A DNA stretch of 51,952 nt. Origin: a virus. The notes beneath the pieces were generated by a model. The model searched no databases. It saw only the letters and a list, made by a program, of their open reading frames with translations, and had not been told where the DNA came from. The translations under genes and the position numbers were made by a program. The stretch lies in IMG/VR virus record IMGVR_UViG_3300026116_000049, positions 1-51,952 of that record. The stretch is one strand, 5' to 3'. The number at the start of each line of letters is the position of its first letter. The first letter of the stretch is position 1. Shown piece by piece: positions 1 through 37,322 of the stretch.

Positions 1-3000
1 AGAGTTTACAGTAGATGTGAAAACACCACCAGGACCTGGTATAAATAATCCTCCTTTCAAAGTGGCATTGCCAAGCACCGTAATATCACTGTTAAAGGTA
101 TTACTATTTGTCCATGTATTAGCAGTTCCGAGAATGTTATTAGGTGTTGCCCAATTACCTGCCCCTGTTGTATTAGTCGCCGTCCACACTTGTCCGACTA
201 CAGATGTAGTATTTAGAATAGGGGTATTTATTTGCGGAGAAGTAAGTGTTTTATTTGTGAAGGTTTGCGTTCCACCAATATTAGCCAAGTCTTGGTTGCT
301 TGTCCCATCGTAGTAACGCAAAACAGTGGCTGACGGCCTCCAAAAATCGCCACTTACAGGAGTAGTCGGGGCTGTGCCTACAGGAATATTAAATGTAGAA
401 GCAGCACCGGTAGAAGCCTTCATGCCTAAGAATGATGATGTGCTATTACCTCCTATGCCGACATACCCTAAACCATTGATTGTTAAAGCTTGCGCCGTTA
501 TTTGTGTCCCAGATGGGTTATATACTTGTAGAGCCCAAAAATCTGAAGATGCAGTAGTGCTCTTAGTATGTGACCATTGATAGGCATATCCTGTATTATC
601 ATCAATTGCGCCTGTAGATACGTTTCTGTTTATTGAAAAGTTACCATTATTTCCGAAATGAAGTTTCTCGGTACTGGCTCCTATTGCTAATCCTTCATTT
701 AGATTAATCGTAAACTTTCCAGTACTCGTAACCGCTGCGGATTGTGAAGTAGTTACAACATTACCAAGTGTAATTGTACTTTTGCTTAAATTACCAAAAC
801 CATCTATACCAGGTAAAAAGTCACTTGTCGCATAAGACGGATATAAAAAAGTACCTGTTTTAGCTGTACCAGTGTTATTGATAGTATATATACCAGTTGC
901 ACCTCCTTGAGTATAAACATTGCCTGCGATATTATAGCCGCCTCCCGTATTTCCACTTGATGAGGAATTGTTAAAGAACACATTACTATTCGTGGTTGCG
1001 TTTACGAATATGCCTAATTTAGCACCATTGGCAACATTGACATTATTAAATGTTGTGCGCCTATATGATCCTGAATTTTGAACGAAATATAAGGCTGTAT
1101 CCCCAGTTGATCTAATCTGAATATTGTTAAAATCCCCGAATGCGAAAGATGGATCAAGATATATTCCACGGTAAGCCATGGCATTAATTCTTCCATCGCT
1201 GATATTTGCTCCATCAACAACAGCATTTGTTTTAATTCCGTATTTAAGTGAATCAAGTTGAAAGCCTATTACCTGTGGGAACTCTAATGATTTTCCATTT
1301 TCTGAAATTAAATAAATACCGATACCGTTACTATTTTTAATATTGCGAGCGTGGAAATTTTGAACAATAGTTCCCCAACCATAAGCATAATCGTTTGATT
1401 TTAAAGTTAACGCAGCTGTACTATGCCCATAACCAGATACTCCTATACTACGCCCTCCAATAGCTTTATAAACGCTTCCATAAGCACCGTAATATGTGAC
1501 AACGTTTATATCTACCGGATCGTAAACATTCTCTTTTAAGTTGGCATGAACTGCGCTTGTACTGTCCCTGCACAAGTTAGATACATTCTCATCAACAATA
1601 CCAATCAACTGCGGATAGTTTGTTTGGAGTTGGTGCATTCCATCCTGTGATGGATAACCTCCTGATACTTTGAATCGGGCTGCAAAGAATGTAGCATCAG
1701 TAGCTACACCTCCGTTATAGGCATCTGTCCATGCTTTCCCCACATCAACTCCAAGATTATGACGTTGAATGTTATTATAGCATGTATCAAGGAATCGCCC
1801 TTGCCAAATGGTGCCCCCAACCAACTTGGTAGGCGTTGTTATAAATGCCCCTATACTTTGGGAATAGAATTTCATTTTAGCATCTGTAACTGGCATACCA
1901 GAACCGAAAAAATGAACATTAGGACGATGCAATACAGGAGTAACAAACGTACCTGCACTATAATTTACTTTAAATAGAATGGTTGTATCTGTTGCAAATG
2001 CCTCGGCTGCAGCGTAATTCCTGAAAGGCTTATCTTGCCTTCCAATAACTCCAGTTGCATCATTGCCTGTATTTGAGATCCACGCTTCATATTTACGGGT
2101 GGTGGTATCTGCTTTCGAGTTAAAAGTCCCAGATTGTGATGCGCCTGCACTATCAACTGCAAACTTAACAGCCCCCCAATTAGGCAACCAATCATCATGT
2201 AATTTCCCGTTAGTGCTATAATCTTCCCAATATCTTAACCCAGTATTATTAATCCTATCCAACACCAACATCCTTGTGCTGTCCAATAATATCATTGAAG
2301 GCGCATTAGATGGTTCTGTTACATATTCCAATACAGCCTGATCCTTACTTAAATAAACACCCCCGTAATGTCCGGTATCAGCGCCAGATGTATTGCCATT
2401 GGCCAATGAGATATAATTATTATCAATCACCAATTCAGATTTATGGCTTGGATTGCTTACTACCAAAGGCGTTCCTTCATCCGTAATTGTTTGAGGCCCA
2501 GTAAGTGCATTCCCCCTGATTAAATTAGCCTTACCAGAATTTACACTATCTAAATATGACCTATCAACTAAAGCATATGGATGTGTTGATATACCTGCAT
2601 GATAATTACCGTCATTCTCAATACCAGTACCATTCAACCCGTCAACTACATGGATGCCATCAGTATTCATATTAATCTTTACACTATTAGCATCATCCTC
2701 TCGCTGAGCGAACATAGTTACAGCAAATGGTGCAGTAACCACTCCGTAAGACTTCCTATTAACGCCTGTTAATTGATTTATGTAGTTAAGTGATCCAGAC
2801 CCTCCTTGTACGCCAATAAAGCTTAAACTACCACTCCCTGGTGTACCATTGTAAATGTTAAAATCGAATGTACCTCCTATAGTGGTAGTTTTGGTCAAAG
2901 TGCCACCTAACTGTATGTCATTTCCGGTTTTTGTTAATCCATTGGATGCAGTCGTTCCACCGCCTATAGCTGAGTTAATCATTCGTAATACCTGAATACT

Positions 3001-3189
3001 ATCTGTTGGTTGCCACCACAAATAAGTGCTACCATTCCACACAAAGTGCCTTTTTGACGATGGTTCCCAATAAAACGTGTTTGTATTAAGTTGCACAGGG
3101 GACACTGGTGTTGGGGTAGCAGGAACAGTTTGTGAAAAAACCCTGCTAAAAAGCAATAAGGCAATGATTATAAATAATGTCTTCTTCAT
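1..3189 (-). CDS. Tail fibre/tailspike-like protein with signal peptide, C-terminus cut by window edge
   Basis: The frame opens with ATG at 3189 and stays open to base 1 (1,063 codons), so the gene is partial. Residues 1-19 look like a Sec signal peptide: KK, a hydrophobic run (LFIIIALLLF), then FSQ, a common cleavage context in Bacteroidota. Around residues 365-380 a segment reading SNTGNDATG followed by KPFRNYAAAEAFA resembles the entry of right-handed beta-helix (pectate-lyase-like) proteins. What follows is rich in N, G, T and short beta-like repeats. The visible end (around WTNSNTF, GLFIPGPGG) resembles the repeat region of fibres before a C-terminal chaperone or receptor-binding domain. 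It probably binds or degrades a surface glycan. A signal peptide is odd for a virion protein. Position at the end of the tail module supports the call; the exact fold is inferred. Confidence 0.75.
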   Translation of the reverse strand, partial: MKKTLFIIIALLLFSRVFSQTVPATPTPVSPVQLNTNTFYWEPSSKRHFVWNGSTYLWWQPTDSIQVLRMINSAIGGGTTASNGLTKTGNDIQLGGTLTKTTTIGGTFDFNIYNGTPGSGSLSFIGVQGGSGSLNYINQLTGVNRKSYGVVTAPFAVTMFAQREDDANSVKINMNTDGIHVVDGLNGTGIENDGNYHAGISTHPYALVDRSYLDSVNSGKANLIRGNALTGPQTITDEGTPLVVSNPSHKSELVIDNNYISLANGNTSGADTGHYGGVYLSKDQAVLEYVTEPSNAPSMILLDSTRMLVLDRINNTGLRYWEDYSTNGKLHDDWLPNWGAVKFAVDSAGASQSGTFNSKADTTTRKYEAWISNTGNDATGVIGRQDKPFRNYAAAEAFATDTTILFKVNYSAGTFVTPVLHRPNVHFFGSGMPVTDAKMKFYSQSIGAFITTPTKLVGGTIWQGRFLDTCYNNIQRHNLGVDVGKAWTDAYNGGVATDATFFAARFKVSGGYPSQDGMHQLQTNYPQLIGIVDENVSNLCRDSTSAVHANLKENVYDPVDINVVTYYGAYGSVYKAIGGRSIGVSGYGHSTAALTLKSNDYAYGWGTIVQNFHARNIKNSNGIGIYLISENGKSLEFPQVIGFQLDSLKYGIKTNAVVDGANISDGRINAMAYRGIYLDPSFAFGDFNNIQIRSTGDTALYFVQNSGSYRRTTFNNVNVANGAKLGIFVNATTNSNVFFNNSSSSGNTGGGYNIAGNVYTQGGATGIYTINNTGTAKTGTFLYPSYATSDFLPGIDGFGNLSKSTITLGNVVTTSQSAAVTSTGKFTINLNEGLAIGASTEKLHFGNNGNFSINRNVSTGAIDDNTGYAYQWSHTKSTTASSDFWALQVYNPSGTQITAQALTINGLGYVGIGGNSTSSFLGMKASTGAASTFNIPVGTAPTTPVSGDFWRPSATVLRYYDGTSNQDLANIGGTQTFTNKTLTSPQINTPILNTTSVVGQVWTATNTTGAGNWATPNNILGTANTWTNSNTFNSDITVLGNATLKGGLFIPGPGGVFTSTVNS

Positions 3190-3198
3190 GTGTTAAAA

Positions 3199-4470
3199 TT
3201 AAGGTGTTTCACCAACTATTACATCATAAGTCGCATCTGGTGTGATGTAACCAAATGTTGATTCTGTTTTATTTCGCCAATAGAATCTTAACCCAAGATC
3301 AGTGTACATATTTTTATCCGCTACCAATTCATAACCGCTGGCTCCAAATAAATATTCTTGTCCTGTTCTTAGATCATAAACAATGTTGTTTGATCCGCTA
3401 AATGAAATGTTGGAATAGTAAGCATTGTCTTGACTTTGCGCTGTATAACCATAAGGACATTTACCCTTGAATTTATAAAGTACCGTATCACTATTTAAAT
3501 TGACAGTCAATGGAAAGGCCAAGCTTCCTTTTCCTCCCGGCGCGTCTGAATATTGAGATCTATTTATAAGTATAGTATCACCCTGTCTTTCTATTTTAAC
3601 ATCAAGACTTTGATTCGCCCAACTGGCCGTTGTATTATACAATCCCGGCGACAAAGACCCATTGGCTATTATTTTTTGAGTTAACTTCCGATAGTCATAA
3701 ACCACAAAATAAGAAAGTGTAGTAGTTTCTCTATTGATGTATAATGCCAATGAGTGCTGATTAGGAATGAATTGATTGGTGGTATTTATTGGCCATGAAA
3801 AATCACCTGGATTTAATCCATAGGCATTATTCCTTACTAAAGTAGTCGTGTCTTCGTAAAATGCAATTACAATACCTATTCTGTCATTATCAGAAGTAGT
3901 TGTAGCACCAATGGTAGCAGAGTGAATATAGTGGTCAAACTTATCAGGGCTTATAAAGCCAATTGCCGAGCCTGAATTAAATGTTGACTTAACCCTGTTG
4001 GCAACTGTGTCATAAGCCCATGAATTAGTTTGCAGCGGCTGCCCCGGTATAGTATCGTTTTGTGTTTGTCCCTGTGGGTCTGTTTGGCTACCTCCATGGC
4101 TGAACCGCTTGAAGCTATTAAATATCTGTAACTGTGTAGCACTTCCTGCAGCAAATGCCCTTGCTTTTTGTGCATCAGTATAAATAAACTGCCCATATAC
4201 TAATGGTTCTACTGGTGTATATATTTGGCTGTTGTTTACACTTACTGAAAGGATTTGCCCCCTCAACCCAACAGGTAACCTATTTAAAGCAATACTATCT
4301 ATTTGTCCCTTTGTATACCAATAAACATAGCCTTTAGATCCTAAATTGTTTCTAAAGAAATATCCGGTTGAAGTAGTTGAACGCTGTGTTGCTGTTGTGC
4401 CAAGATTATCCCATTGCGCGCTTACTTTTAATGAAGCGAACAACAATATAAGTAAACATAACTTTCTCAT
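3199..4470 (-). CDS. Tail-associated protein with signal peptide, possible lectin-like fold
   Basis: 423 residues. The N-terminus (MRKLCLLILLFASLKVSAQ) is a clear Sec-type signal peptide with an SAQ cleavage context. The mature N-terminal 150 residues are rich in T, S, Q and N. The segment around residues 185-350 has alternating beta-like strands (RIGIVIAFYED, LALYINRE, YFVVYDYRK, LDVKIERQGD) that resemble concanavalin-A-like jelly rolls, which is an inference. No catalytic motif was recognised. It lies 9 bp upstream, in transcription order, of the signal-peptide fibre gene and overlaps the gene before it by 4 bp, so it is part of the tail operon. It could be a fibre, a baseplate lectin or an exported accessory protein. 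Confidence 0.6.
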   Translation of the reverse strand: MRKLCLLILLFASLKVSAQWDNLGTTATQRSTTSTGYFFRNNLGSKGYVYWYTKGQIDSIALNRLPVGLRGQILSVSVNNSQIYTPVEPLVYGQFIYTDAQKARAFAAGSATQLQIFNSFKRFSHGGSQTDPQGQTQNDTIPGQPLQTNSWAYDTVANRVKSTFNSGSAIGFISPDKFDHYIHSATIGATTTSDNDRIGIVIAFYEDTTTLVRNNAYGLNPGDFSWPINTTNQFIPNQHSLALYINRETTTLSYFVVYDYRKLTQKIIANGSLSPGLYNTTASWANQSLDVKIERQGDTILINRSQYSDAPGGKGSLAFPLTVNLNSDTVLYKFKGKCPYGYTAQSQDNAYYSNISFSGSNNIVYDLRTGQEYLFGASGYELVADKNMYTDLGLRFYWRNKTESTFGYITPDATYDVIVGETP

Positions 4471-20600: not shown

Positions 20601-21621
20601 CTACTATGTTGCCGTTGATCTTTTCAATGGCTGTAGCAGGCCATAAATAGTCTGCAAATAAGTCTGTTTCTGTTGGTACTACCGGTATGGTTAAACTTTC
20701 GTTATAAAAGCAGAATGAATATAGGTTGGTAGTTGGGTCATACGCCTCATATATCTCCATTGAAATATCGACTGCAGTATTGGGCAATGCCACGATATAA
20801 GACCTGTCAACCGTTTTTATGATGTTGAAGTCGAATAGTCCATACCGGCAAGCAATGTTTAGCTGTGTGGCTCGTATAGAGCCTATATTGACTGATACAA
20901 CAATACAATTGTTCTGCGATACATCTGTCCCTACAGCAGGTGTACTTTCCTGTGGTGGAATGATTCGCTTACTCCATGTTCCCCATGTGCTGTAGTTAAA
21001 GTCATCATTGATGTACTGTGAGGTGAACTGGAATAACTTACCTTTAACAAAGTTTGATGCTTTGCCGGTATCATCGATATAACTTGCGGTTATGGGGATT
21101 AAGTTTTGAGGCTTTATCAACGACAGATCTTCTGCCAATACTGTACCATAATCTCCATTTGCAAGTTTCGTTAGGTTGGTATAACCTATCTCATTTTTGC
21201 CATCTGCCCATATTGGATAGTTACTGTTGATAAGAATACACTGCACATAGTATTGTGGGTCTAAATTGAGTAACTGTATGCCACCACTGTCTGTTTTGTC
21301 AGTGTAGATGATTTGCTGTGTTTTGGTATCAGCATTATATACTGCTATCTGATGAAACCCTGCTGAGTTATATATGAACATGAGGATTTGGCGAATATCT
21401 TCAAATGCTCTGCCTCCTATGCCTTTATTGATACCTGTTGCACGTTCACCTGCTATTAAGGAATTGCTTTCAGGATTGGTTACATAGCCAAATTCAGAGC
21501 CTGTAGTTCCGATTACCCTCCCGTTAAATGCAGTTACCCAGTCTTCCTTGCTTATGAATTCAGGAGCCGAATCGGTGTCCATACCTCCGGCATAGAAATA
21601 CTTTAAATCATCTATGTGCAT
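17692..21621 (-). CDS. Nozzle/tail-hub-like protein (tail tube B / P22 gp10 type)
   Basis: 1,309 residues from ATG at 21621 (a TTG at 21627 would overlap the promoter). The N-terminus (YFYAGGMDTDSAPEFI, AFNGRVIGTTGSEFGYVTN) is typical of podoviral stabilisation or nozzle proteins, which begin with a GG-MD-D-x-x-P pattern and a beta-propeller. The middle is strand-rich, with conserved FYPENLYGESDGQTSSSYG and a later VGIGLSKESFCYKDNNAYF. The C-terminal 300 residues are Ig/cadherin-like repeats (MVTYTPTSGYVGSDTANFTI; SVAYTSITAGTVDVTIAGT) that may contact the host surface. It is the key tail gene, placed between the tRNA cluster and the virion-core genes. Confidence 0.75.
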   Translation of the reverse strand: MHIDDLKYFYAGGMDTDSAPEFISKEDWVTAFNGRVIGTTGSEFGYVTNPESNSLIAGERATGINKGIGGRAFEDIRQILMFIYNSAGFHQIAVYNADTKTQQIIYTDKTDSGGIQLLNLDPQYYVQCILINSNYPIWADGKNEIGYTNLTKLANGDYGTVLAEDLSLIKPQNLIPITASYIDDTGKASNFVKGKLFQFTSQYINDDFNYSTWGTWSKRIIPPQESTPAVGTDVSQNNCIVVSVNIGSIRATQLNIACRYGLFDFNIIKTVDRSYIVALPNTAVDISMEIYEAYDPTTNLYSFCFYNESLTIPVVPTETDLFADYLWPATAIEKINGNIVAIGDLKVGYDRPTTPVTIAAVGYDPNLTVPDDSNPDPLRVSYTFPGAVGSGLGNHRRYIQVNFLGLPKENDIITITMYDIRNAGSTLTYTYVVPAADEDHLLDTIGHLSATIPDSSYRQDTTSPQVVLGINGPPYFQLQSATITLYNAGASVSKSIHAVLDNSSYQLALEYRDKYGRPFPLETNNQFIVNTPSFAQLFGQAVGISWTITDPVAPVGAVDYQWLMTKNSTVTNLLDVFGNLIDYKGGWNAHTNTPFLAANTGTVGDAYQITAPNSPSDTPQVNLGNGTLSFNTGDYVVYNGKSWDIVPKTFADLASSNVLAVKINPLSLFNDRYSNNGVDTVLTYDFVPGDRCTFHYYVDPVTPTAENYLNNPCIDVDVFGYDPTSFLLKIQKASAIDPATLSGKNIFLRLYSPNTQQSTSTATSDNTTVWYEIGERFTITDGNHDTLQGRITDGDVYFKTRSYSGAVDPNVNYDILATDFNFSDFYVSNFTSYGRPRSYYDILEKTEQKASIIYSQNYVLGSRKNGLNRFYPENLYGESDGQTSSSYGAIQVLWQRGDLLEVFQERRIGSIPVNRSIIEDQAQQQQVAISEKLLNNIRYSQTASVGIGLSKESFCYKDNNAYFVDPNRSEPFRYGLDGIESISRKMTKYFKATLQAAYGQGKKLVMYYNMFYDEVMLCIQTEGAIVTYFPFSESNWRFDDGYTLTPSNILIVQNGAHCVASWNHATGMVTYTPTSGYVGSDTANFTIQTPTGQTTKKVCLNWTAGDSIPNDFSFAPLFDVPVSTVEVSNAISVIGITVAVPISITGGEYSKNGGAYTSSAGTVVNGDSIQVRQTSSASNSTTTTATLTISTKSANFDVTTISGDAYRVNTAYGYTITSIVDGTATGTPAALNPLSLPPNGSISVAYTSITAGTVDVTIAGTAVFPNQKLDLYVNGVNVQRVSIPTAGTYTLTFPAATSPTPILIGIAQS

Positions 21622-21624
21622 GAA

Positions 21625-21632
21625 CAAAGATA
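21625..21632 (-). promoter_or_regulatory. Promoter TATCTTTG abutting the nozzle start codon
   Basis: Minus-strand TATCTTTG is followed by TTC and then ATG (21621). A transcript starting 4-7 nt after the -7 element would begin at or next to the start codon, so the mRNA is likely leaderless. No TTG lies at the ideal -33 spacing. Confidence 0.55.
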
Positions 21633-21662
21633 ATTTATTTACAAAGGTGGTTTAAAATAAAG

Positions 21663-21735
21663 TAAGGCGAACGGGATTCGAACCCGCGATGACCACATTG
21701 AAAGTGTGATGGCTTAACCGCTTGCCAACCGCCTC
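21663..21735 (-). tRNA. tRNA-Glu (TTC)
   Basis: Cloverleaf on the minus strand. Acceptor GAGGCGG/TCGCCTT (two G-U pairs), D-arm with GGCAAGCGGTTAAGCC, anticodon stem TCACA/TGTGG with loop CTTTCAA (anticodon TTC, reads GAA), T-arm GCGGG-TTCGAAT-CCCGT. No CCA is encoded. It is the last gene of the tRNA row before the nozzle promoter. Confidence 0.85.
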
Positions 21736-21736
21736 G

Positions 21737-21808
21737 TTTTGCCGAAAGGAATCGAACCTATATCAACTGATCCAAATTCAGTTATGTTAGCCTTTACACC
21801 ACGGCAAA
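21737..21808 (-). tRNA. tRNA-Gln (TTG)
   Basis: Cloverleaf on the minus strand. Acceptor TTTGCCG/CGGCAAA (perfect), anticodon stem ACTGA/TCAGT with loop ATTTGGA (anticodon TTG, reads CAA), T-loop TTCGATT with one weak pair in the T-stem. Only a couple of bases separate it from the Glu tRNA, so both come from one precursor. Confidence 0.85.
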
Positions 21809-21820
21809 ATATAAATGGTC

Positions 21821-21891
21821 TTGTTGACAGGATTTGAACCTGCGATAACCCTCATTCCAAGTGAGGTAACCACACCAACGGATCGCAACAA
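21821..21891 (-). tRNA. tRNA-Pro (TGG)
   Basis: Cloverleaf on the minus strand. Acceptor TTGTTGC/TCAACAA (one mismatch at the base), anticodon stem CCTCA/TGAGG with loop CTTGGAA (anticodon TGG, reads CCA), T-arm with GGTTCAAATCC. It is first of the row Pro-Gln-Glu. Confidence 0.82.
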
Positions 21892-21896
21892 GAAAT

Positions 21897-21929
21897 AAAA
21901 AAAGCCCCTTGATTATTAGTCAAGAGGCT
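21897..21929 (-). terminator. Rho-independent terminator upstream of the tRNA row
   Basis: Minus strand: AGCCTCTTGA, short loop, TCAAGGGGCT (one mismatch), followed by seven T. It lies directly before the Pro tRNA in transcription order and so separates the connector gene transcript from the tRNA row. Confidence 0.7.
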
Positions 21930-22022
21930 CAATGTTTTTGGCAATGCAAACCTACCCGACTATAATGTCGATTGGTTGCGGTTGCTCTATGTTTAATATT
22001 CTTTTCATTTTCGTTTAATAAT

Positions 22023-22045
22023 GCCCGGGCAATTTACACCCGGGC
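22023..22045. other. Perfect GC-rich hairpin GCCCGGG/CCCGGGC
   Basis: GCCCGGG, 9-nt loop, CCCGGGC, between the Trp tRNA-like gene and the terminator at 21897-21929. No T-tract follows on either strand, so it may be a pause or processing site, or the folding core of an unidentified RNA. The rest of 21930-22110 holds no ORF or tRNA that I can support. Confidence 0.5.
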
Positions 22046-22113
22046 TAATGTTTGTTTGATACCGATCCCGTACCTGGCGCTAATCATCAGTTTGATTGTC
22101 TATATATGATGTT

Positions 22114-22185
22114 GCACACCTCAGGGATTCGAACCCATAACTTCGGTTTTGGAGACCGCTGTTTTACCGTTAAACTATCAGTGCG
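22114..22185 (-). tRNA. tRNA-Trp-like gene (CCA), weak acceptor and T-stem
   Basis: The D-arm and anticodon arm match tRNA-Trp closely (ATAGTTTAACGGTAAAACA, loop CTCCAAA with anticodon CCA) and the T-loop is TTCGAAT. The acceptor stem, however, pairs at only about four to six positions depending on register, the first anticodon-stem pair is mismatched, and the T-stem has about three good pairs. It could be a decaying or unusual phage tRNA. It is separated from the other three tRNAs by about 220 bp. Confidence 0.6.
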
Positions 22186-22309: not shown

Positions 22310-23092
22310 TTATGACTTAGCCACGAGCTTAGTACCACGTCTGATTATGTCATTCATTTCAGCAAGATTAAAGTTATTGATCCTCATTTTTGATTTACGT
22401 TTCTCATTATAGAAACTTCTCTCATATTTAGTAACCCAACTTATGCTAAACTTCTTTGGCTGATCAATGGCATTTTGCCATCTTATCCAAGCAAGCATTG
22501 CTTCTGCTGCCCTTGAATCAATGTAGTAATCATCCTCGTTTTCATCATACCCATCTGTGAGGTATTCTAAGAGGATTTGAGGGTATTTAAATTCTGGATT
22601 AAGTATGATAAGGTTTTCACCCAATTCTATTTTATACGTACCAACAGTGGCTGTACCGCTGTCTAAACCATATAGATTGAAGCTTGTACCTAAGTTCCAA
22701 AAGTTAAAATAGTAAAGGTTGTTATATGACTGGTTGTTTAGTCCGAATGGTGTGCCGAATGAATTGATAGTTGGTACACCTGCGTTACGTTCTACATTGT
22801 TGTAGTAAGCAGCGTGATAGCCGCTCAACTGGTCATTCCTTTTAAGCGTTACAAACTCTCCTGCGCCATTAACTATGCCTATTTTGGAGTAGTTCAGATA
22901 CCCACATGGGAGTGGCACTGTTTTGTTGGGCATTACATCCAGTAGTTCGGTCTTCAGATAACCGCAGATATCTAAATTAAATTCGTTCTCATATCCCCTC
23001 ACGGCAAGATTGTATACTCGGCGGTACTGATGAGATGAAGTATCACTACTATCCAAAAATTGTGCGCATATCTTTCTTAAACTCGTTTGCAT
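22310..23092 (-). CDS. Head-tail connector/adaptor protein
   Basis: 260 residues. Helical N-terminus (SLRKICAQFLDSSDTSSHQY), a beta-rich middle with many N/Y (SYNNLYYFNFWNLGTSFNLY), and a helical C-terminus (DSRAAEAMLAWIRWQN; EMNDIIRRGTK). This layout and its place as the last of three genes after the capsid resemble the ring or adaptor proteins of crAss-like phages. The region downstream holds only tRNA genes. No enzymatic motif is seen. Confidence 0.6.
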   Translation of the reverse strand: MQTSLRKICAQFLDSSDTSSHQYRRVYNLAVRGYENEFNLDICGYLKTELLDVMPNKTVPLPCGYLNYSKIGIVNGAGEFVTLKRNDQLSGYHAAYYNNVERNAGVPTINSFGTPFGLNNQSYNNLYYFNFWNLGTSFNLYGLDSGTATVGTYKIELGENLIILNPEFKYPQILLEYLTDGYDENEDDYYIDSRAAEAMLAWIRWQNAIDQPKKFSISWVTKYERSFYNEKRKSKMRINNFNLAEMNDIIRRGTKLVAKS

Positions 23093-23094
23093 AA

Positions 23095-23745
23095 TTAAGA
23101 GGGTATTGATTGTGAATCATTCAAAACATCTTTTGGCCTGTTGGCTGTCTGCAATAACCTTGCTATTACTTTTTGTGATAGTACCCCTTCATAGTTCTTA
23201 GGCAATGTCAATGGTGCATCTAACAACTCTCCATCAGGCATAGCACCAACCATATTTACATTTACTGCCCCAAACCTAACCCTGTCAGGATCGTAAAAGT
23301 ACAGGTTGACGCCCTCAACATAATACAACAAAAAGCCTCTCATTGCTGGTAACAATCCCTGTGCAAAGGTGCTACGGCTATTCATGGGTACTATCTCAAC
23401 CTTAGTTGGCTTGGTGAATGTATTACCCACTACAGGCCACACCTTTTCTATTTCCTGGTTATTGGGTAGTGCTGTTGGCAATGATGGTAATGGTATGTAT
23501 TTCCTATGGTCACTATCAGTTAATATTGTAATATTTTTGAATGTAGTTATGAAAGTGTCATTCGTATATGTCGTTTCTCCCCAGTTGCTGTTCTCTATGG
23601 CGTTTTGGTGTGCCATAGCAGCCATTTCCTCGCTCACAAGTTGGGCTACATGCCGTAAGGAGAAATCTTCATCGTCGCTCCTAATCCCACGTGCATATGT
23701 GGTTAGTATCTTCTCCGCAATATTTCGATAACTTGTGATTGGCAT
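23095..23745 (-). CDS. Head-tail connector/ring protein
   Basis: 216 residues, mixed alpha/beta. Helical N-terminus (ITSYRNIAEKILTTYARGI, HVAQLVSEEMAAMAHQNA), central strands (YIPLPSLPTALPNN, RGFLLYYVEGVNLYFYDPD) and a helical end. The strand YYVEGVNLYFYDP recalls connector proteins of Bacteroidota podoviruses. It lies 2-3 bp from both neighbours, between the two other putative adaptors, so the three are probably co-translated and stacked under the portal. Confidence 0.55.
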   Translation of the reverse strand: MPITSYRNIAEKILTTYARGIRSDDEDFSLRHVAQLVSEEMAAMAHQNAIENSNWGETTYTNDTFITTFKNITILTDSDHRKYIPLPSLPTALPNNQEIEKVWPVVGNTFTKPTKVEIVPMNSRSTFAQGLLPAMRGFLLYYVEGVNLYFYDPDRVRFGAVNVNMVGAMPDGELLDAPLTLPKNYEGVLSQKVIARLLQTANRPKDVLNDSQSIPS

Positions 23746-26907: not shown

Positions 26908-27978
26908 TTATGACCAAATCAAATCACCCACATCTTGCTTAGATGACGTATCTACCGTCTCTGCCCTGTTGTTTGACAGGTCGATGTTTTTAATGTCTGA
27001 AGCAATGACCTCTTTGATAGTGGCGTTTTTACTACGGGTACTTACCGATTTTACAATCTTATTCAAGTTCCTTAAAGCATACACATCCTCGGCAATCTTT
27101 AAGTGATTGAATGTACCATCTTCGTTAGTCCAGCCACGCTCTTTCATGAAGTCTGCACCGTTCCACTTTTTCATACTTTCCACCAATTCAGCTTTATCTT
27201 CGGGGGTAACTGTGAAAACCGCTTCCTCGGGTTTTTTGTCGTCACCAATTTGGAATTTAAAGTCTGTGATGTTTGGTACGCTTGTTTCTGCATCTTCTGC
27301 CCATTTACGGTTAGATTCGTCAATCTCTTCCTGGGTTCTTCCTGCAGTCTGTGCAACCGGTTCTTCTTTTGTTATTTTGGGTAATTCTATGGTTTTTTGC
27401 TGTTCTTTGAGTTTAACCCTGCTGTCCCTTGCACCTCTCTGTAACCTTAATAGGTTCTCTTCTGCACGTTCATTGTGGGCTAATGCTTCTTTGTAACCCT
27501 CCGGGTCAAGGTCTTTGTCAATACTGTCAAGGTCATATACCTCTAACTGTTTGCCGTATGCTGTTCTGATTTCAAGTTCAATGTCTTTATCAGTCCATGT
27601 TGGGTTGTCTTTCTTTAGTGACATCCTTACCACATCAAGGTCGCTCATGGTGTCATAGTTACGCTTGATTTCTGATAGGTAGTCATGAATGCTATCAATG
27701 TCGCCATTTACATAGCGTTCGTAAAGGTCTTTAGCCCGTTCATCCTTGAACTCAGGATATTTTTCTACAATCTTCTCAACTACTTTCTCAATAACCCTTG
27801 GCTCTGGTTCGGTTACTACGATCTTTTCAGGCTCTGTAGTAGCCGCTGGTTCAGTAGTTGTAGTGGTTGTTACTGGTTCGTTTTGGGCAGTTGCTTCTGC
27901 CTGTGGAGTAGTTTCGGTTTGAGTGGTATCATGCTCAACTACCGGGGTTTCATCCATACCCATGTATCCTGTACCCAT
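26908..27978 (-). CDS. Putative scaffolding protein
   Basis: 356 residues, strongly acidic, almost entirely helical. The N-terminus is a T/E/P-rich disordered stretch (TTTTTTEPAATTEPEKIVVT), then charged coiled coil (RVIEKVVEKIVEKYPEFKD), helices, and a basic C-terminal segment (KIVKSVSTRSKNATIKEV) typical of scaffold-coat contacts. It lies directly between portal and capsid genes, as is normal for a scaffold. Confidence 0.7.
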   Translation of the reverse strand: MGTGYMGMDETPVVEHDTTQTETTPQAEATAQNEPVTTTTTTEPAATTEPEKIVVTEPEPRVIEKVVEKIVEKYPEFKDERAKDLYERYVNGDIDSIHDYLSEIKRNYDTMSDLDVVRMSLKKDNPTWTDKDIELEIRTAYGKQLEVYDLDSIDKDLDPEGYKEALAHNERAEENLLRLQRGARDSRVKLKEQQKTIELPKITKEEPVAQTAGRTQEEIDESNRKWAEDAETSVPNITDFKFQIGDDKKPEEAVFTVTPEDKAELVESMKKWNGADFMKERGWTNEDGTFNHLKIAEDVYALRNLNKIVKSVSTRSKNATIKEVIASDIKNIDLSNNRAETVDTSSKQDVGDLIWS

Positions 27979-28035
27979 ATTAATTTTTTGTTTGTTTAAT
28001 GTTGGTATAAAAGTAAAACTTCCTTTTTAACTTTT

Positions 28036-30501
28036 TTATGCTGCTTGCTGTTCTTGCGGCTGCATTTGTTGCATAGCTTGTTGTTGGGCTGCTGCCTCTT
28101 GTTGCTGTTGTGCTATCTGCTCTGCTTGTTGCTGTGCAGCCATTTCTTCTTGCTTTTGATGAATGGAGTTAACCATAATTTGTTTTTCACTCTGGTCAAC
28201 TATGCCCATACCATCAAGAATAGGCGCTGGTAATTGCTGCCATGATGCTCCTGGCTGTGCCAACATTGACTTAGCTATCTCAGCTTTAATCAGGTTCACA
28301 GACTTCAATATCTCTTTCTCCTTGTCTTTTTCTGATTGAAGTTCTATTTCTTTTAGCTTGTTATTGGCTTTCAGATTTTCCAAATCAATATCGCCCTGCG
28401 ACTTGGCTTTTGCTGCAGCAATGGCTGCTTGAGTGTTGTCCTGTGAGTTCTGTGCCGCCATCTGCTGCGCTTCTCTTTGACGTTTAGCTATCCGTGATGC
28501 CAACATGTAGGAGGCATAGTCTACATCTATTGTAGCCAGTTTCCTTACATCTATTGCATCTGCCAATGTAATCTCTTTCTGACCCAATGCCTGACCTATA
28601 TTTGCTTCTAAGAATTGCTGTGCCTGATCGTCAATTATTGTTTTGATCTGTACATCAAAGTTCGTACGTTCAAAGTCATCTGTTGCCTCAACCTTGATAT
28701 ATTCAATCTTTTCAGCACCCAACGCTTTCCTATACCCATCATAAAATGTCTTCCCGAATTTCTTACCAAACACCAATATATCCCATCCTCTTAATTGTGC
28801 CAACTTAGCACTTCTTTGCATAATGTTCAGGAATGAGTTGTATAGGTAGTTAGATGAGCTTTCGCCAGTTTGTTTAGCTTGTTTAACCACCTGTTGACTA
28901 ACGGCCTGATTGGTTATCTCGCCTGATTCAAGGTTGTTAGAGCCAGTTATACGCATCAATGTATCAAACTCCGCATTCCATTCATTACGCAATTGTTCAA
29001 GCTTTCCTGAGAATGGAACGTTGTTAGCCGTTATTGGCTCTCTCCTTTGGTCTAAGCCTCCATCATCAATACGTTTGTAGAACCCAATACCCGTTTGCTT
29101 TTTGATTTTGTACAGTTCAAAAGGGCTTAAAGCACCCTCCCCTAAACCAATGTCCACATCACTCATGGTTGATATATCCACATCGTAACCATCGGGCATA
29201 GCTGCAGCAATGATGTTTTGTTGTTTAAGGTCTATCAACTGCATTTTCTTGATAGATGGAATCATGGTTTCAATCATTGGCTTATTCACCATTTGATTGT
29301 TGTTATACATATATATGGCGTAAGAACTGATTATTTCTTGTAAATTGTCTTTAGGCTTAACCATGTTCTTTGATAGACCCCACTCCAACACATATTCTGT
29401 ATCGGCTATCATTACACCGGTATATGAAACGTAATACGGGTTGCTTTCTATGCTGTTTTTAGGGTCAGTAATGGTTTTTACCTTATCCAATGTTTCCTTG
29501 CCAAATCTATCTGTACCTGTCTTATATTTAAGGCTGTAGAGCGTTTTTAATTCCAATTCGATAACTTCTACCCTGAAACTGTCATAAGGTCTTGCAAGGG
29601 CTGTATAGTACAAACTATTCCATCCGTAATTGAAGTCATTAGGATTTCCGTATTTGCCGGTAAATGTCTGTGCCAGTTCCCATAGCCTTTGCTCATCAAT
29701 CTTATTGGGGTACTTTAGTCTTATCTCAGCAATACTCATGTAATACACTTCGCCTATGTATTGCCAATCTCTAAAGTCATTCCATTCTGTAAAGCTTGTT
29801 ATTAAGTTCTCAGGGCGTATAGGACGTATTTTAATCCTTCCTGTGGCATCGATGTACACCTTAGTGCCTGCATATCCACAGTTAATCAAATCATCCATCA
29901 GGCGGTCTTTAATCACGCCTGTGAAGTCATTATCATAGAACACTATGTTAATCAACTCCTGCATGATGATTTCTTCAGGAATACGGTACTTGTAGCCGAA
30001 CATGATTTCAATCTCTGATTCGCTTTGTGGGTCATCATCAGAATATTGTTCTATTTCTGCTCCTGATTCCTGTTGAAGCGCCTGGATTTTATCTTTTTCG
30101 TTGAGTTTGAATAGGGCGTTATCTTTGGCATTTTTCTTCTTTTCAGCACTGAATGGATCAATTGAGGTACAACTAATTTTTTCTTCCCGCTGATTGTAAC
30201 GGTCTTTTAGCCTGTTTAAGAAAGGAATTGCTATTGGTAGTGGTTCATAGATAAGCTGAATAACGCTATTCTCGCCGTCTAAATCAAGGATATCTTTATA
30301 TTCTTGCATTGGCTGTCTGCCCATAGCAAATGCCCTGTTGTAGTCAAATCGGGTCTTACGGCCATATCTTGTTTCGCCGTTGTATCCGGTATTCCAATTA
30401 TCAAAAGCCCCCTGCATAAGCTTTAATCCAAAGCTTTCTTTGTCTTTGTCTGTATCAGTGCTTAAAATATTGGGGAGATTGGTAATACCGTTCAGAGCCA
30501 T
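28036..30501 (-). CDS. Portal protein
   Basis: 821 residues, close to crAss-like portals. Visible features: an N-terminal region LFKLNEKDKIQALQQESGA with a long charged helix, a core with YAGTKVYIDATGRIKIRPIR and PENLITSFTEWNDFRD (the P-x-N-x-I-T-S region seen in this portal group), YYMSIAEIRLKYPNKID, the clip and stem region (NNLESGEITNQAVSQQVVKQ), and a Q/A-rich C-terminal barrel-like tail (QQAEQIAQQQQEAAAQQQA). Preceded by terminase and followed by scaffold and capsid. It would form the dodecameric DNA channel. Confidence 0.8.
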   Translation of the reverse strand: MALNGITNLPNILSTDTDKDKESFGLKLMQGAFDNWNTGYNGETRYGRKTRFDYNRAFAMGRQPMQEYKDILDLDGENSVIQLIYEPLPIAIPFLNRLKDRYNQREEKISCTSIDPFSAEKKKNAKDNALFKLNEKDKIQALQQESGAEIEQYSDDDPQSESEIEIMFGYKYRIPEEIIMQELINIVFYDNDFTGVIKDRLMDDLINCGYAGTKVYIDATGRIKIRPIRPENLITSFTEWNDFRDWQYIGEVYYMSIAEIRLKYPNKIDEQRLWELAQTFTGKYGNPNDFNYGWNSLYYTALARPYDSFRVEVIELELKTLYSLKYKTGTDRFGKETLDKVKTITDPKNSIESNPYYVSYTGVMIADTEYVLEWGLSKNMVKPKDNLQEIISSYAIYMYNNNQMVNKPMIETMIPSIKKMQLIDLKQQNIIAAAMPDGYDVDISTMSDVDIGLGEGALSPFELYKIKKQTGIGFYKRIDDGGLDQRREPITANNVPFSGKLEQLRNEWNAEFDTLMRITGSNNLESGEITNQAVSQQVVKQAKQTGESSSNYLYNSFLNIMQRSAKLAQLRGWDILVFGKKFGKTFYDGYRKALGAEKIEYIKVEATDDFERTNFDVQIKTIIDDQAQQFLEANIGQALGQKEITLADAIDVRKLATIDVDYASYMLASRIAKRQREAQQMAAQNSQDNTQAAIAAAKAKSQGDIDLENLKANNKLKEIELQSEKDKEKEILKSVNLIKAEIAKSMLAQPGASWQQLPAPILDGMGIVDQSEKQIMVNSIHQKQEEMAAQQQAEQIAQQQQEAAAQQQAMQQMQPQEQQAA

Positions 30502-30545: not shown

Positions 30546-32642
30546 TTAATGATATTGCTTACTTCGCTTGATCTTCATGAATTGCCTAACTTTAGGTTCT
30601 ACTTTGGCTATTGGTTGATAGCCCTTCAATCCCATCAATGAATAGCCCCATGCCATACAAGCATCATAATCAGTCCTTTCATCAATATCGAACTTAACCA
30701 TTTCCTTCAGCAACCTCAAGAACTTAATTTTGTGCATGTTATTGTAGGCATATTCCTTCATTTCTGTCAAATGCTGCTCTCTTGCCTCTTTATCCTGTGG
30801 TGCTATGCCATATACCTCTGAACCATTGGCTCTTTTGGTGGTGATTAAATACCCATGCTTCTTTTCCTGTTCAATGTCAGATGCCAGCATTCTTTTAGTG
30901 GCATAGTCTTCCCAGTCTGTAGGTGAACGTTCGGCCAGTAACTTAACCCCAAAGTATTCTAACCCCCAAAATATTTGATCGTGGAACTCTTCTTTTTTAG
31001 GTGGCCTGCCAATGAACATGGCAATAGGCATATTGGAATTGTCAGGGTTTAGCGCATCATATCTCTTATGGATGATACAGCAAGCATCTGAACCTGGGTC
31101 AACAGTGGCCTTAGCGTTGGCGTATGTATCTAAGCCCGCAGCGCCATAAATAGCGTTATTGGGGCATTTAATGCTTCCTTGGTATGTTGACCTGTTGTTC
31201 TCATCAATGAACTCCATAATATACCACATCCCCTCTTTGTGGTCTTCAAAGTATTTTTCACCGCTATCATGTTTTTTAAATACCCCTCGGCGACCCATTT
31301 CTTTCAAGCCCATAGCCCTTAGTTCTTCTTCAACTTTTGCTATTTGGTTGTTTAAGTCGTCAAGTCTGAAATTGCAGCGGTTATTAGCACCTTTGAATAC
31401 CTCTTTCCATGTGAATGGATTTTTAAGTATTTCCTCCAATAGCATTTCCGGGTCATCCTCCAACATCTTTCTGTTCTCTTCCAGATATTGTTTAGCGCCG
31501 ATGTATGGATCAGGACACCCTAATCCTGTAGCAGGGTCTACAAACTTCTTTAAGAACTCTGTCTGCTCTTTTGTTGGGTTTTCGACTATAGATTCGCCAT
31601 ACTTACCTACATAGCCTAAAAAGCCTCTATAGGCTGGTATAAAGAACCGTTTGAGTTTGGTTTGTGTCCGACCGAATTTGTCTTTCTTGCCATTAATATG
31701 ATCAGAACCATCCCAAATGTTCTTAAAGTTATCGCCACCTTCTTCACCTTTATTTACAGTAGTAAACACAGATACGTGTCCACCTATTACAGCACCTACT
31801 ACAAGTGTATCACTGATACGGGTTAAACACTTCTGTACATTATATTTCTTCCACTTTCCAGCCTCGTCAATGGTAACATGCCTTACCCTACGACCATCAT
31901 AAGCATTCTCTGACGTATCAAGCCAGTTAATACGGTTGTTCTTGCCCTTATCTCCGCTGGCCTTGGTGTTGTTTGTGCTGATTTTTTTGGATGGCTTGGC
32001 GATGTGTATTTCGCCCTCCGTAACCTTGTTCAGGTCTGGCATCAAGAACGGTGGTAGCTTTTCAAGAGCGTTCTTAATAAAGAAGTACATTTCCTGAGCA
32101 TCTGTACCCGTCTTTGATACTATACCCTGAATGGTATTGCTTTCGAGAATAGCAATCAACAGCTTAATAGAAGCAGACATTGATGATAAGCCCAAACGTC
32201 TACCCTTAATACCAATGTCACCTAAACAGAATGGATCTTGTTCGCACAGTTCAAAGAACCTGAAGTATTCTAATGATGTTTCCTTAAATATCGGGTAAAT
32301 ACCAATGTCAAGACAGAACCATTGGTGAAAGAAGTGAGCATATTTATTGAAGTATGTCGGCACACCTCTTATCATGTGCCATGCTCCTACGTGTAGTCGC
32401 TCTATTTCAGCATCAAACCAGTCAAGTTGTTCCTGACTGGCTACATTAAACCATAGTGGCCCTTTTTTAGGATCATCATTCCAATCCCACTTTTCATATG
32501 TTAAATCCCTGAACCATACTTGGTCTTTAACAGGTAACTCATAGCCTCTTATTTCTTCAAGAGGTGGGCATATTCCAGTTTTGTAAAGTAGCCCCTGTAC
32601 TTCTATCTCAAAACTTCTCTGTCTACTTATGGGTGGTGCCAT
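30546..32642 (-). CDS. terL: Terminase large subunit
   Basis: 698 residues. ATPase domain: a phosphate-binding segment GDIGIKGRRLGLSSMSA (about residues 141-157) of the deviant type seen in crAss-like terminases, and Walker B RHVTIDEAGKW (about 254-264). Nuclease domain: begins near IYGAAGLDTYA with the first Asp and ends with DERTDYDACMAWG carrying the late Asp. The DNA-packaging motor of the phage. It overlaps the upstream small gene by 20 bp and is followed by the portal. The best-supported call in the window for phage identity. Confidence 0.85.
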   Translation of the reverse strand: MAPPISRQRSFEIEVQGLLYKTGICPPLEEIRGYELPVKDQVWFRDLTYEKWDWNDDPKKGPLWFNVASQEQLDWFDAEIERLHVGAWHMIRGVPTYFNKYAHFFHQWFCLDIGIYPIFKETSLEYFRFFELCEQDPFCLGDIGIKGRRLGLSSMSASIKLLIAILESNTIQGIVSKTGTDAQEMYFFIKNALEKLPPFLMPDLNKVTEGEIHIAKPSKKISTNNTKASGDKGKNNRINWLDTSENAYDGRRVRHVTIDEAGKWKKYNVQKCLTRISDTLVVGAVIGGHVSVFTTVNKGEEGGDNFKNIWDGSDHINGKKDKFGRTQTKLKRFFIPAYRGFLGYVGKYGESIVENPTKEQTEFLKKFVDPATGLGCPDPYIGAKQYLEENRKMLEDDPEMLLEEILKNPFTWKEVFKGANNRCNFRLDDLNNQIAKVEEELRAMGLKEMGRRGVFKKHDSGEKYFEDHKEGMWYIMEFIDENNRSTYQGSIKCPNNAIYGAAGLDTYANAKATVDPGSDACCIIHKRYDALNPDNSNMPIAMFIGRPPKKEEFHDQIFWGLEYFGVKLLAERSPTDWEDYATKRMLASDIEQEKKHGYLITTKRANGSEVYGIAPQDKEAREQHLTEMKEYAYNNMHKIKFLRLLKEMVKFDIDERTDYDACMAWGYSLMGLKGYQPIAKVEPKVRQFMKIKRSKQYH

Positions 32643-32961: not shown

Positions 32962-33700
32962 TCTTTACTATATCTGATTGTTTCTTTGCTTCCTGGTCGT
33001 AGAAATCATCAAACTCCTGTATAAAGTTCAATGCTTTTAGTGTTAAAACAAATTTACCTCTTTTACCTGATAACCTTTGAAGCCATCCTTTATTACATAA
33101 ATATTTGGTTCGCACCTTTGATGTGTCCTCGCTCCCAACCACTGACCACATGTAGTAAATATGTGGTTCAACTATCTTTTGATAGGTGGAAACCATGAGC
33201 AAATTGAAAAACTCTTTTTTAATGTTTTTCTGTTCTAAGAATCTATCAACTATAATCATGTAAAAGTGCCCATAGTACTTTACCCTGTTGTTTAAGGCAT
33301 ACTTTGATACCTTACCACGCTCCATAGCAGAAGCACATCTAATAGCCTTTTTCCTTACTGTACGTTCTTTTCTGGCAAAAACTACTCGCCTATGAGCCCT
33401 TTCCCTCCGTTTTACTTCTTTTACCTGCTCATTGGCTTTTGCTTCCACCGTCAACACATGTTTCTTCCAAAGGTGCAGGTATACCCATAGGTTTCTGATT
33501 TTCTTGTTTAGGGTAGGAATATGGACTTCACGTAAGAACTTTTGACCCTTGCCACGGATACTATAGGTTTGCCTGGTTTTTGGTGTAGCCATGGCATTGA
33601 ACTTAAGTCTTTCTTCCTTTTCCTTAAGCTTTTTGTCCATACTTGTGTCGACAGCAATCTTACCGTCTTTCTTGATCCAGAATCCAGCTTTCCTTGGCAT
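32867..33700 (-). CDS. Basic, winged-helix-like protein; candidate small terminase or DNA-binding protein
   Basis: 277 residues, very basic. Residues 85-125 are a dense Lys/Arg helix (KEVKRRERAHRRVVFARKER). A C-terminal third reads SEDTSKVRTKYLCNKGWLQR, LSGKRGKFVLTLKALNFIQE, which resembles a winged-helix hairpin (GKFVLT) after helices. It also ends with a Lys/Arg tail. Positive charge and placement just before the terminase suggest DNA recognition for packaging. It overlaps the following gene by 95 bp, an unusually long overlap. Confidence 0.5.
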   Translation of the reverse strand: MPRKAGFWIKKDGKIAVDTSMDKKLKEKEERLKFNAMATPKTRQTYSIRGKGQKFLREVHIPTLNKKIRNLWVYLHLWKKHVLTVEAKANEQVKEVKRRERAHRRVVFARKERTVRKKAIRCASAMERGKVSKYALNNRVKYYGHFYMIIVDRFLEQKNIKKEFFNLLMVSTYQKIVEPHIYYMWSVVGSEDTSKVRTKYLCNKGWLQRLSGKRGKFVLTLKALNFIQEFDDFYDQEAKKQSDIVKNAKRNKNSDTKTLKVSRRRNRIADEKPTGLC

Positions 33701-34287
33701 TATATTAACACTCCTACAATTTCGTTTTCAACCAGTTTAATGTATTTCTTACCCCAATAGTTAAGTTCGTACTGTTTGTCGTCAACTGTAACAACTGTCT
33801 CGCCGATACTAATTAAGTTATTATCTGGCACATGGGTTATTTTCACTTTAAGACCCTCTTTCTTTCCTCCGCTTAAATAAATGCCGGTTTCAGTGATTAC
33901 CTCGTCTGTTAGCAATTGTTCTCCTAAATAAGCGCCATCAACCATTTTGAATGTATTATCAGGCATTATTTGAAATAAAATAAAGTCTGTGTCTACAATC
34001 CACCCATATTCTGTCAATTCTGCTGTCTCATAGGCCATGTAATGAAGAAATATCTTGTCTCCAACCTTATAGTCACACGATGCAGATGTAATCGTTACAG
34101 AGGCTATTTGGGGCTTTGTTTCAAGGTAATTAAGGTTCTCATTATATTTTGAGCTTTGTTCACCGTCATCTTCCCGGTTTATCCACAGATCAGCCCTTAC
34201 TATATCAAGGTCATTTAGTCCTTTGGTTAGTGTCTTATTATGACTTTCATCAAACTTAACGCCTATTTTGCCATTCAATAACTTCAT
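33700..34287 (-). CDS. Tandem GroES-like co-chaperonin-fold protein
   Basis: 195 residues that read as two GroES-like halves. Domain 1 (about 5-107): KIGVKFD, then YKVGDKIFLHYMAYETAE and VDTDFILFQI, matching the GroES pattern G-D-x-V-x-F ... Y ... D-I-x-A-x. Domain 2 (about 113-195): EVITETGIYLSGG resembles the mobile loop with its I-V-L-like tripeptide (here I-Y-L, 136-138), followed by LISIGETVVTVDD, KQYELNYWGKKYIKLVENEI and VGVLI, the usual C-terminal end of GroES. Known phage co-chaperonins (T4 Gp31, RB49 CocO) replace GroES during capsid folding; two domains in one chain recalls plant Cpn20. Pattern-based, no search done. Confidence 0.55.
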   Translation of the reverse strand: MKLLNGKIGVKFDESHNKTLTKGLNDLDIVRADLWINREDDGEQSSKYNENLNYLETKPQIASVTITSASCDYKVGDKIFLHYMAYETAELTEYGWIVDTDFILFQIMPDNTFKMVDGAYLGEQLLTDEVITETGIYLSGGKKEGLKVKITHVPDNNLISIGETVVTVDDKQYELNYWGKKYIKLVENEIVGVLI

Positions 34288-35255
34288 GATAGTATCCTTT
34301 CTTTTCTTAGTTCGTTAATTCTTGATAGCAATAAATTATCATGAATATTTGCCCATGATATTTCATTTGCATTTTTCATTATATCCAATCTTCCCTCTTT
34401 AGATGGATATTCTGATAATAGAGATAATGGCAATGTCCCCTCTTGATTAAACTCATTCAATTCACAGTTCCCGAAAAAAGCAGAACCTGCATATGTGGCC
34501 TCAATCCATGATATGTTGCTTTTGCTTTGGTTGAACTTCGTGTTGCTGAGTGGCGCAAACATCACATTTGGATTTTGTGAGTATAGGTATTTGAAATACT
34601 GCATCAATGACATTTGTGATACTGGTTGATAGTTAGCGCCACATCTTTGCTCCAAATACACAAACCTTTCGCCAATGAACTGGAATTCCCAATCTTGATT
34701 ATCATTGATTGTTTTTACCAAATAGTCCGCAACCTCGTACACATCTGCCTGATGGCTTCCACCGCCTCTCCAAAATGCTTTTTTAGTATTAGCATTGAAC
34801 GGCTTTTTGTATTTTGCTTTGAATAGGTAGTCATTATGAGCATTCGGTATTACATGTATGTTTTGATTGTACATGCCAAATGATTTCTTAAGTCCTGCAG
34901 TTGTTACCCATATCTCATCACTAAATAACAAGCAGTCCAAAATAAGCCCCTTGGCGCTCTCGTAAATGTGAAATGTAGGATTATACTGGTCAACGTGCAA
35001 AACGTCGTCGTCGTAGTCTGAAATGACCTTTAAACCGCAATCTTTTGCCAACCTTATCATGGCTAAATCATTGTGACTTGATGGGCGTGTTAATAACAGG
35101 TGAGTATAGCCAACAAACGTGTTCCATGCTATCTGCCCCATCAATGGTTGGAATGTTACTGATATGTCTTTACCATCAATGTACTTCAATGGTGTACTCC
35201 TGTAAAATGCAGTCCCATCATCAGGATATTGTGTTATGTGTAATACTTTCTTCAT
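34284..35255 (-). CDS. Glycosyltransferase, GT-B/GT4-like
   Basis: 323 residues. N-terminal half of Rossmann character (MKKVLHITQYPDDGTAFYRS, LKVISDYDDDVLHVDQYNP, SDEIWVTTAGLKKSFGMYN). The linker contains IHVIPNAHND, and a C-terminal half has KKAFWRGGGSHQADVYEVAD, a donor-binding style FIGERFVYLEQR, and NQSKSNISWIEATYAGSAFF, the usual GT4 Glu-rich acceptor region. It probably transfers a sugar to an unknown acceptor. It overlaps both neighbours by ATGA, in an operon with two more glycosyltransferase-like genes and a methyltransferase. Confidence 0.75.
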   Translation of the reverse strand: MKKVLHITQYPDDGTAFYRSTPLKYIDGKDISVTFQPLMGQIAWNTFVGYTHLLLTRPSSHNDLAMIRLAKDCGLKVISDYDDDVLHVDQYNPTFHIYESAKGLILDCLLFSDEIWVTTAGLKKSFGMYNQNIHVIPNAHNDYLFKAKYKKPFNANTKKAFWRGGGSHQADVYEVADYLVKTINDNQDWEFQFIGERFVYLEQRCGANYQPVSQMSLMQYFKYLYSQNPNVMFAPLSNTKFNQSKSNISWIEATYAGSAFFGNCELNEFNQEGTLPLSLLSEYPSKEGRLDIMKNANEISWANIHDNLLLSRINELRKERILS

Positions 35256-35956
35256 GCTACTCTTTTGTATACTCTTAAATGAACAACGTTAAATTGAAAC
35301 TCGAAATTTGGATTCTCCCATTCTTTCACTGCTTGGGTTACAGCATCTATTCCTTGGAAGAAGCCCCAAGGCATGTGTAGATCGTTGCAGGCATCATCCA
35401 CAACAAGATAGCCACCAACATTAACCATATTAGGATAGTGTCTTAAATCGCTTGTAATAACCTCATAGGTATGCCCTCCGTCAATGTAAACTATGTCGTA
35501 TGGTGACCCATCATAAGCACATCTCATAAATCTATTATCTGTGCTCAATCCTTTAAAAATGCAATAACATTGATTAATGTTAAACCTTGAATGAATGGTT
35601 CGTATATCCTTTTCGTAATCTGATTCCCAATGACCATCTGTACTATCTAAAGGGCTTACACCGCTTCTTGAGCATGTTTTATTTTGTTCGTTCGATATCA
35701 ATTCGATTAATGACAACGAAGCACCACGAAAAATTCCTATTTCTAAAAATGTAAAGTATTCAGGCATTTCCTTAATCAATTCGTGCCAAAACCAATGAAA
35801 AGAACGTTCACCAAACCCAAAAGCATTTTGCTCAACAAAATCTCTGTGTTCTTTCAAATACTGACAAGAGTTTACACGTTCAATCAACTCGTTGTTAACC
35901 TTTTCATGCCATTCAGGAGTATCAACCCATCCCTCTGTAAGTTCTTTTAATGTCAT
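35252..35956 (-). CDS. Class I SAM-dependent methyltransferase-like protein
   Basis: 234 residues. Motif I is visible as FTFLEIGIFRGASLSLIEL (about residues 67-85), motif II-like YDIVYIDGGHTYEVITSDL, and NVGGYLVVDDACND for the next strand. This set resembles the Methyltransf_24 group found beside glycosyltransferases in glycan clusters, often methylating sugars. No obvious DNA-methylase catalytic motif (no DPPY or PC) is seen. It overlaps its neighbours by 4 bp. Confidence 0.7.
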   Translation of the reverse strand: MTLKELTEGWVDTPEWHEKVNNELIERVNSCQYLKEHRDFVEQNAFGFGERSFHWFWHELIKEMPEYFTFLEIGIFRGASLSLIELISNEQNKTCSRSGVSPLDSTDGHWESDYEKDIRTIHSRFNINQCYCIFKGLSTDNRFMRCAYDGSPYDIVYIDGGHTYEVITSDLRHYPNMVNVGGYLVVDDACNDLHMPWGFFQGIDAVTQAVKEWENPNFEFQFNVVHLRVYKRVA

Positions 35957-37319: not shown

Positions 37320-37322
37320 AGT

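Follow-up and report, generated by a model that had tools for sequence, protein, structure and literature searches.

Predicted Sec signal peptides on two adjacent tail-adhesin genes of a Bacteroidota phage, a rare but recurrent trait that may point to virion assembly in two compartments

Two adjacent tail genes of the IMG/VR virus record IMGVR_UViG_3300026116_000049, P1 and P2, encode a fibre- or spike-like protein and a protein with a tail-fibre domain, and both proteins start with a predicted Sec signal peptide (Table 1; the window is the whole stretch of DNA analysed, 51,952 nucleotides). Virion proteins of tailed phages are taken to be signal-free and cytosolic, a rule that signalled tail adhesins break. 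Export and cleavage of both proteins are, judged from sequence, very probable, and the export that the original prediction had put forward remains the best reading, since the signals appear genuine and are kept in a divergent virus. Sec export removes P1 and P2 from the cytoplasm; if they are part of the virion, assembly would thus have to be completed either in the periplasm or once the cell has lysed. We propose that P1 and P2 are Sec-exported tail adhesins, which form a periplasmic pool and dock at lysis, a reading to which we give a little less than an even chance.

Signals were identified using a purpose-written heuristic Sec/SPI caller, other than SignalP, whose criteria are a positive n-region, a nine-residue hydrophobic core and the -3/-1 rule. 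The N-terminus of P1 reads MKKTLFIIIALLLFSRVFS/QTVPAT and that of P2 MRKLCLLILLFASLKVSA/QWDNLG (predicted cut at the slash). With scores of 7.1 and 7.6, respectively, P1 and P2 carry the only strong Sec/SPI signals that this caller finds among the window genes, the next-best call on a coding gene being 5.4 (gene 36585-37379, with a poor site). Both proteins have Gln at position +1, as expected from the Bacteroidetes Q-rule, and the clear signal peptides that had been noticed on both genes are thereby confirmed. Gln is found at +1 in about 71% of Bacteroidetes SPI substrates and is then cyclised to pyroglutamate (PMC5837995, PMC10653852). The two sites remain the top sites without the Gln bonus; of 11,378 positions inside the proteins of this phage, none was called with Gln at +1, and shuffling of the first 60 residues produced such a call in about 0.8-0.9%. 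A wrongly annotated N-terminus is unlikely for P2, since its start overlaps the stop codon of the upstream gene P3 in an ATGA, an arrangement that is found again in the divergent contig G003. P1 had been described as a fibre-like gene at 1-3189; its signalled start stands, but the gene is incomplete there and runs off the window.

Table 1. Features of the P3-P2-P1 cassette in the window (slash, predicted cleavage site)
Feature	Position	Strand	Remarks
P1, fibre/spike-like protein with Sec signal peptide	1..3189	minus	1063 aa in window, continues off left edge
P1 signal peptide, aa 1-19	3133..3189	minus	predicted cut VFS/QTV
P1 mature N-terminal domain, aa 20-66	2992..3132	minus	conserved in G003; candidate attachment end
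P1 middle region, aa 355-790	820..2127	minus	GDSL-esterase-like domain in its place in G003
P2, tail-fibre-domain protein with Sec signal peptide	3199..4470	minus	423 aa, complete
P2 signal peptide, aa 1-18	4417..4470	minus	predicted cut VSA/QWD
P2 phage tail-fibre domain, aa 61/62-409	3244..4287	minus	homologous to AR9 g012, PhiPA3 gp235 and the Leeuwenhoekiella Arctus_1 fibre
P3, unsignalled, translationally coupled to P2	4467..5315	minus	ATGA overlap 4467-4470; G003 homologue in same place

The genes P3, P2 and P1 are collinear in the window and in G003 (98 kb, locus L001), the one contig with a P1 relative that was found in IMG/VR. The proteins share 40%, 52% and 42% identity, respectively (for P1 over 129 residues only), whereas the terminases of the two viruses are 21% identical. 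In G003, P3 is unsignalled and the signals of P2 and P1 are intact. Two small membrane proteins follow P1 in G003 and also in G001, a second contig of the window virus. Four more small Q-rule signalled proteins of 88 to 143 aa are encoded elsewhere on G003 (964-1230, 3103-3507, 22700-23131 and 27896-28189; L016, L017).

The mature N-terminus of P1 follows a pattern common to the window and G003, PVSP..L.T..F..EPS....F.WNG.TY.WWQP, which suggests that this part of the protein has a binding partner. P1 contains the repeat motif NGLTKxxNDIQLGGT, and its body differs between the two viruses. The middle region in the window looks spike-like or beta-helical by eye; Pfam, PHROG and PDB searches gave no match, AlphaFold reached a pLDDT of 32, and no relative of the region was found in IMG/VR. 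In G003, P1 appears to carry a GDSL-esterase-like domain at this position, as indicated by a Pfam match slightly below the cut-off (PF13472, 1.1e-6, 29.7 bits; cut-off 32.9 bits) and by the presence of the GDSL/SGNH blocks GDS590, SSND649 and DGTH720. Receptor-binding spikes usually combine a constant N-terminus with exchanged bodies, and P1, in which signal and mature N-terminus are kept while the body is swapped, matches this plan.

The body of P2 belongs to a phage tail-fibre family. Its domain matches phrog_36886, phrog_33406 (tail fiber protein) and phrog_21285 (virion structural protein), with E-values of 1e-30 and 2e-25 for the tail fibre family phrog_33406/phrog_36886, and the protein matches 43 phage records. 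Most of these are jumbo phages that infect Pseudomonas, Erwinia or Bacillus, and the Leeuwenhoekiella phage Arctus_1 is also among them. P2 is homologous to these fibres over aa 62-409; however, none of the seven homologues that were read from their start codons has a signal peptide, and P2 differs from them in being a short, signalled protein that stands alone. The signal therefore seems to be particular to P2's version of the domain. AlphaFold of P2 (two sequences) reached a pLDDT of 28, and an eight-row alignment of the domain was nowhere sufficiently conserved to support a scan of contigs.

It had also been considered that the genes were borrowed from the host, and for P2 this is not borne out. 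A profile search of 495 Bacteroidota genomes (395 + 100) returned a single weak match to the P2 domain; this host protein is signalled but seems to be unrelated, and the match was judged to be due to chance. A pattern scan of genome contigs together with five Bacteroidota genomes added no host homologue. A host origin of P2 was rejected because its domain is of the phage tail-fibre type and was not found in about 500 Bacteroidota genomes, an empty result that at this depth falls short of proof. Two Bacteroidota genome contigs (L042, L045) encode fibre-repeat proteins that themselves have Q-rule signals. Such proteins are a possible source of the phage signal peptides, so that P1, or the signal peptide itself, could have host ancestry.

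A survey with DNA motifs derived from the fibre repeat retrieved further IMG/VR contigs, of which four (G004, G005, L062 and L078) have Q-rule signals on fibre or adhesin cassettes; with G003, this makes five viral contigs besides the window virus. In G005 (73 kb), whose terminase, portal and tail genes are related to those of the window virus, four adjacent genes encoding 363, 1392, 409 and 147 aa have Q-rule signals; behind them lie genes for small membrane proteins and one that resembles a lipoprotein gene. G004 (52 kb), which is unrelated to the window virus in the terminase search, encodes a signalled 950-aa fibre and a 165-aa protein at one end and signalled proteins of 216 and 488 aa at the other; the latter is an S8 subtilase with Gln at +1 (L046, 3039-4505; Pfam 6e-41). 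In L062, a Q-rule signalled gene pair, one gene of 250 aa and a second of about 220 aa by eye, lies directly before a Pfam Phage_holin_4_1 gene. The 1,101-aa fibre of L078 has a signal that reads LAA/QPT and was missed by the heuristic caller due to its charge rule. Since the survey neighbours were pre-filtered for Gln at +1, their Gln count cannot serve as independent evidence. When scored with no Gln bonus, the Q site ranks first in 9 of the 15 signalled proteins and second in the other 6.

Signalled tail adhesins are thus recurrent in these sequences, yet rare. Among loci with a complete fibre N-terminus, the motif survey gave 41 without and one (G004) with an automatic call, and about 3 of 44 fibres that share the repeat motif are signalled when G004, G005 and L078 are counted. 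The signals are kept in G003 and are absent from the seven P2 homologues and the cultured relatives examined. No large signalled tail or fibre gene was found in phi38:1, Panino and Bacteroides phage B40-8 (whole genomes) or in the parts covered of elemo, crAss001 and phi14:2. The closest short-tailed Bacteroidota phages are Cellulophaga phi38:1 (Pervagoviridae), Flavobacterium elemo, Maribacter Panino and the crassviruses. Terminase relatives of the window virus are found among phages of Flavobacterium, Cellulophaga, Tenacibaculum and Maribacter, and a muzzle-type domain just under the cut-off is of the crassvirus kind; in the stretches examined, these phages differ from the window virus in having no signalled large tail genes. 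Small Q-rule genes outside the tail genes are present in the cultured Cellulophaga phages phi38:1 (31090-31383, 97 aa; L021) and phi14:2 (9-266, 85 aa; L033).

Neither P2 nor the complete P1 of G003 has a Pfam or NCBIfam match to a T9SS CTD sorting domain (the C-terminus of the window P1 is missing), and both P1 and P2 lack a lipobox, the +1 residue being Gln and not Cys. A periplasmic pool is therefore likelier than surface display, and the periplasm is the likely end point of both proteins until lysis. The O-glycosylation sequon of Bacteroidales is D(S/T)(A/I/L/V/M/T) (PMC4030854). Compared with shuffles and with independence assumed, 65 sequons were observed against 38 expected in 15 signalled proteins. 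The 44 unsignalled fibres contain 143, with 135 expected; counts of the reversed motif are 40 and 108, respectively. Without the four proteins that had suggested the test, 40 sequons remain against 25.9 expected (Poisson p 0.006, independence assumed). The enrichment is uneven, the P1 of G003 and L078 being without any enrichment; overall, the counts are suggestive of a modest sequon enrichment in the signalled versions only.

In the proposed mechanism, P1 and P2 would be exported by the host Sec machinery late in infection and cleaved by signal peptidase I before Gln, which is then probably cyclised to pyroglutamate. Without a recognised outer-membrane secretion signal, they would accumulate in the periplasm in a stable, possibly O-glycosylated form. 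Lysis would then bring these adhesins together with the heads and tail barrels that leave the cytoplasm, and they would dock via their newly exposed mature N-termini. This reading is based on strong signals that are confined to P1 and P2 and both obey the Q-rule (PMC5837995), on the P3-P2-P1 cassette with both signals kept in G003 despite the low terminase identity, and on the Q-rule signals that recur on fibre or adhesin genes of G004, G005, L062 and L078; it is weakened by the rarity of the trait and its absence from the cultured relatives. Whether P1 and P2 join the virion at lysis is about evenly balanced. The case for it lies mainly in the P2 family being tail fibres and in the window genes tested, among which neither another receptor-binding candidate nor a further recognisable fibre gene turned up; the many unannotated phage genes could, however, include one that escaped notice. 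More tentatively still, several Bacteroidota phage lineages may build their virions in two compartments, with cytoplasmic heads and tail barrels and periplasmic, Sec-exported and host-processed adhesins that are joined at lysis.

The same export evidence would also fit proteins that never join particles. P1 and P2 could leave the infected cell by secretion or through lysis and act, unattached, as adhesins or as enzymes on glycans, which clear capsule or matrix, mask receptors or act on periplasmic polysaccharide; we consider this possible, but rather doubtful. A parallel is WceF of Pantoea stewartii, a tailspike-fold glycan hydrolase with an export signal; however, WceF is bacterial, has a Tat signal and is a solved beta-helix trimer, whereas P1 and P2 are phage genes with Sec-type signals and without an established fold (PMC7949094). 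The esterase-like domain in the P1 of G003 and the signalled subtilase of G004 imply that signalled genes need not all be structural. A free role is harder to reconcile with the annotation of the P2 family as tail fibre or virion structural protein, with the lack of a recognised substitute fibre among the window genes tested, and with the conserved mature N-terminus of P1.

Display on the surface of infected or lysogenic cells, where the proteins would act in superinfection exclusion or as a decoy, had been suggested as well and is unlikely. It would be consistent with signal peptides on adhesin-like bodies, and Q-rule genes of P. gingivalis phages were suggested to modify the outer membrane (PMC10367356). 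However, neither a T9SS CTD in the Pfam and NCBIfam searches nor a Cys at +1 for lipidation was found, and P1 and P2 end the structural module and are followed by small membrane proteins, which is the position expected of late genes. Even less likely are hydrophobic N-termini that are incidental, or that serve as uncleaved membrane-binding ends of fibres assembled in the cytosol. Most fibres of related phages are unsignalled, and cytosolic assembly is thus the norm, but in P1 and P2 a positive n-region, a hydrophobic core, small residues at -3/-1 and Gln at +1 co-occur, a combination that persists at 52% identity and reappears in tail cassettes that are unrelated.

A search limited to the open-access literature found no description of Bacteroidota phages whose tail fibres or spikes carry signal peptides. 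P. gingivalis phages likewise encode SPI signals with Gln at +1; their five Q-rule genes are of unknown function, whereas those of the window virus lie on tail-fibre-type proteins (PMC10367356). The docking of exported adhesins would give a candidate role for Q-rule genes of Bacteroidota phages. A missing signal peptide has been used to support the phage origin of adhesin-type DGR target proteins (PMC6199706). If P1 and P2 reach the virion, receptor-binding proteins would be processed by the signal peptidase of the host, and perhaps also by its glycosylation system, and receptor-binding tests should use the processed forms.

The window virus is probably a short-tailed phage of Bacteroidota, the host being indicated indirectly by its terminase relatives. 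Contig G001 is identical to the window over 11895-51951 (100%, about 40 kb), therefore represents the same virus and extends 21.7 kb beyond the right end of the window. Its first open frame (NLPDASGTVALTSDL...) resembles a fibre C-terminus and is the probable C-terminus of P1. A search for a contig that spans the end of P1 found none; the genome is probably about 74 kb in size and closes at the P1/G001 joint, which itself is unseen. A 311-aa gene at 16749-17684 matches the C-terminal domain of the crassvirus muzzle slightly under the cut-off (PF25729, E 2.8e-5), which ties the tail of the window virus to crassvirus-type short tails. Four tRNA genes (Glu, Gln, Pro, Trp) are clustered at 21662-22185 within the structural module. 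Between the terminase and the early region, 33700-37379 contains genes that by eye are glycosyltransferase-like and one that is methyltransferase-like; this run is conserved in G002 at 47-65% and has a possible role in the modification of virion, DNA or host-surface glycan. Just beyond the right end of the window, G001 encodes a protein of 263 aa that contains a long low-complexity repeat, GDGSGYGYG (21160-21951; L010-L011).
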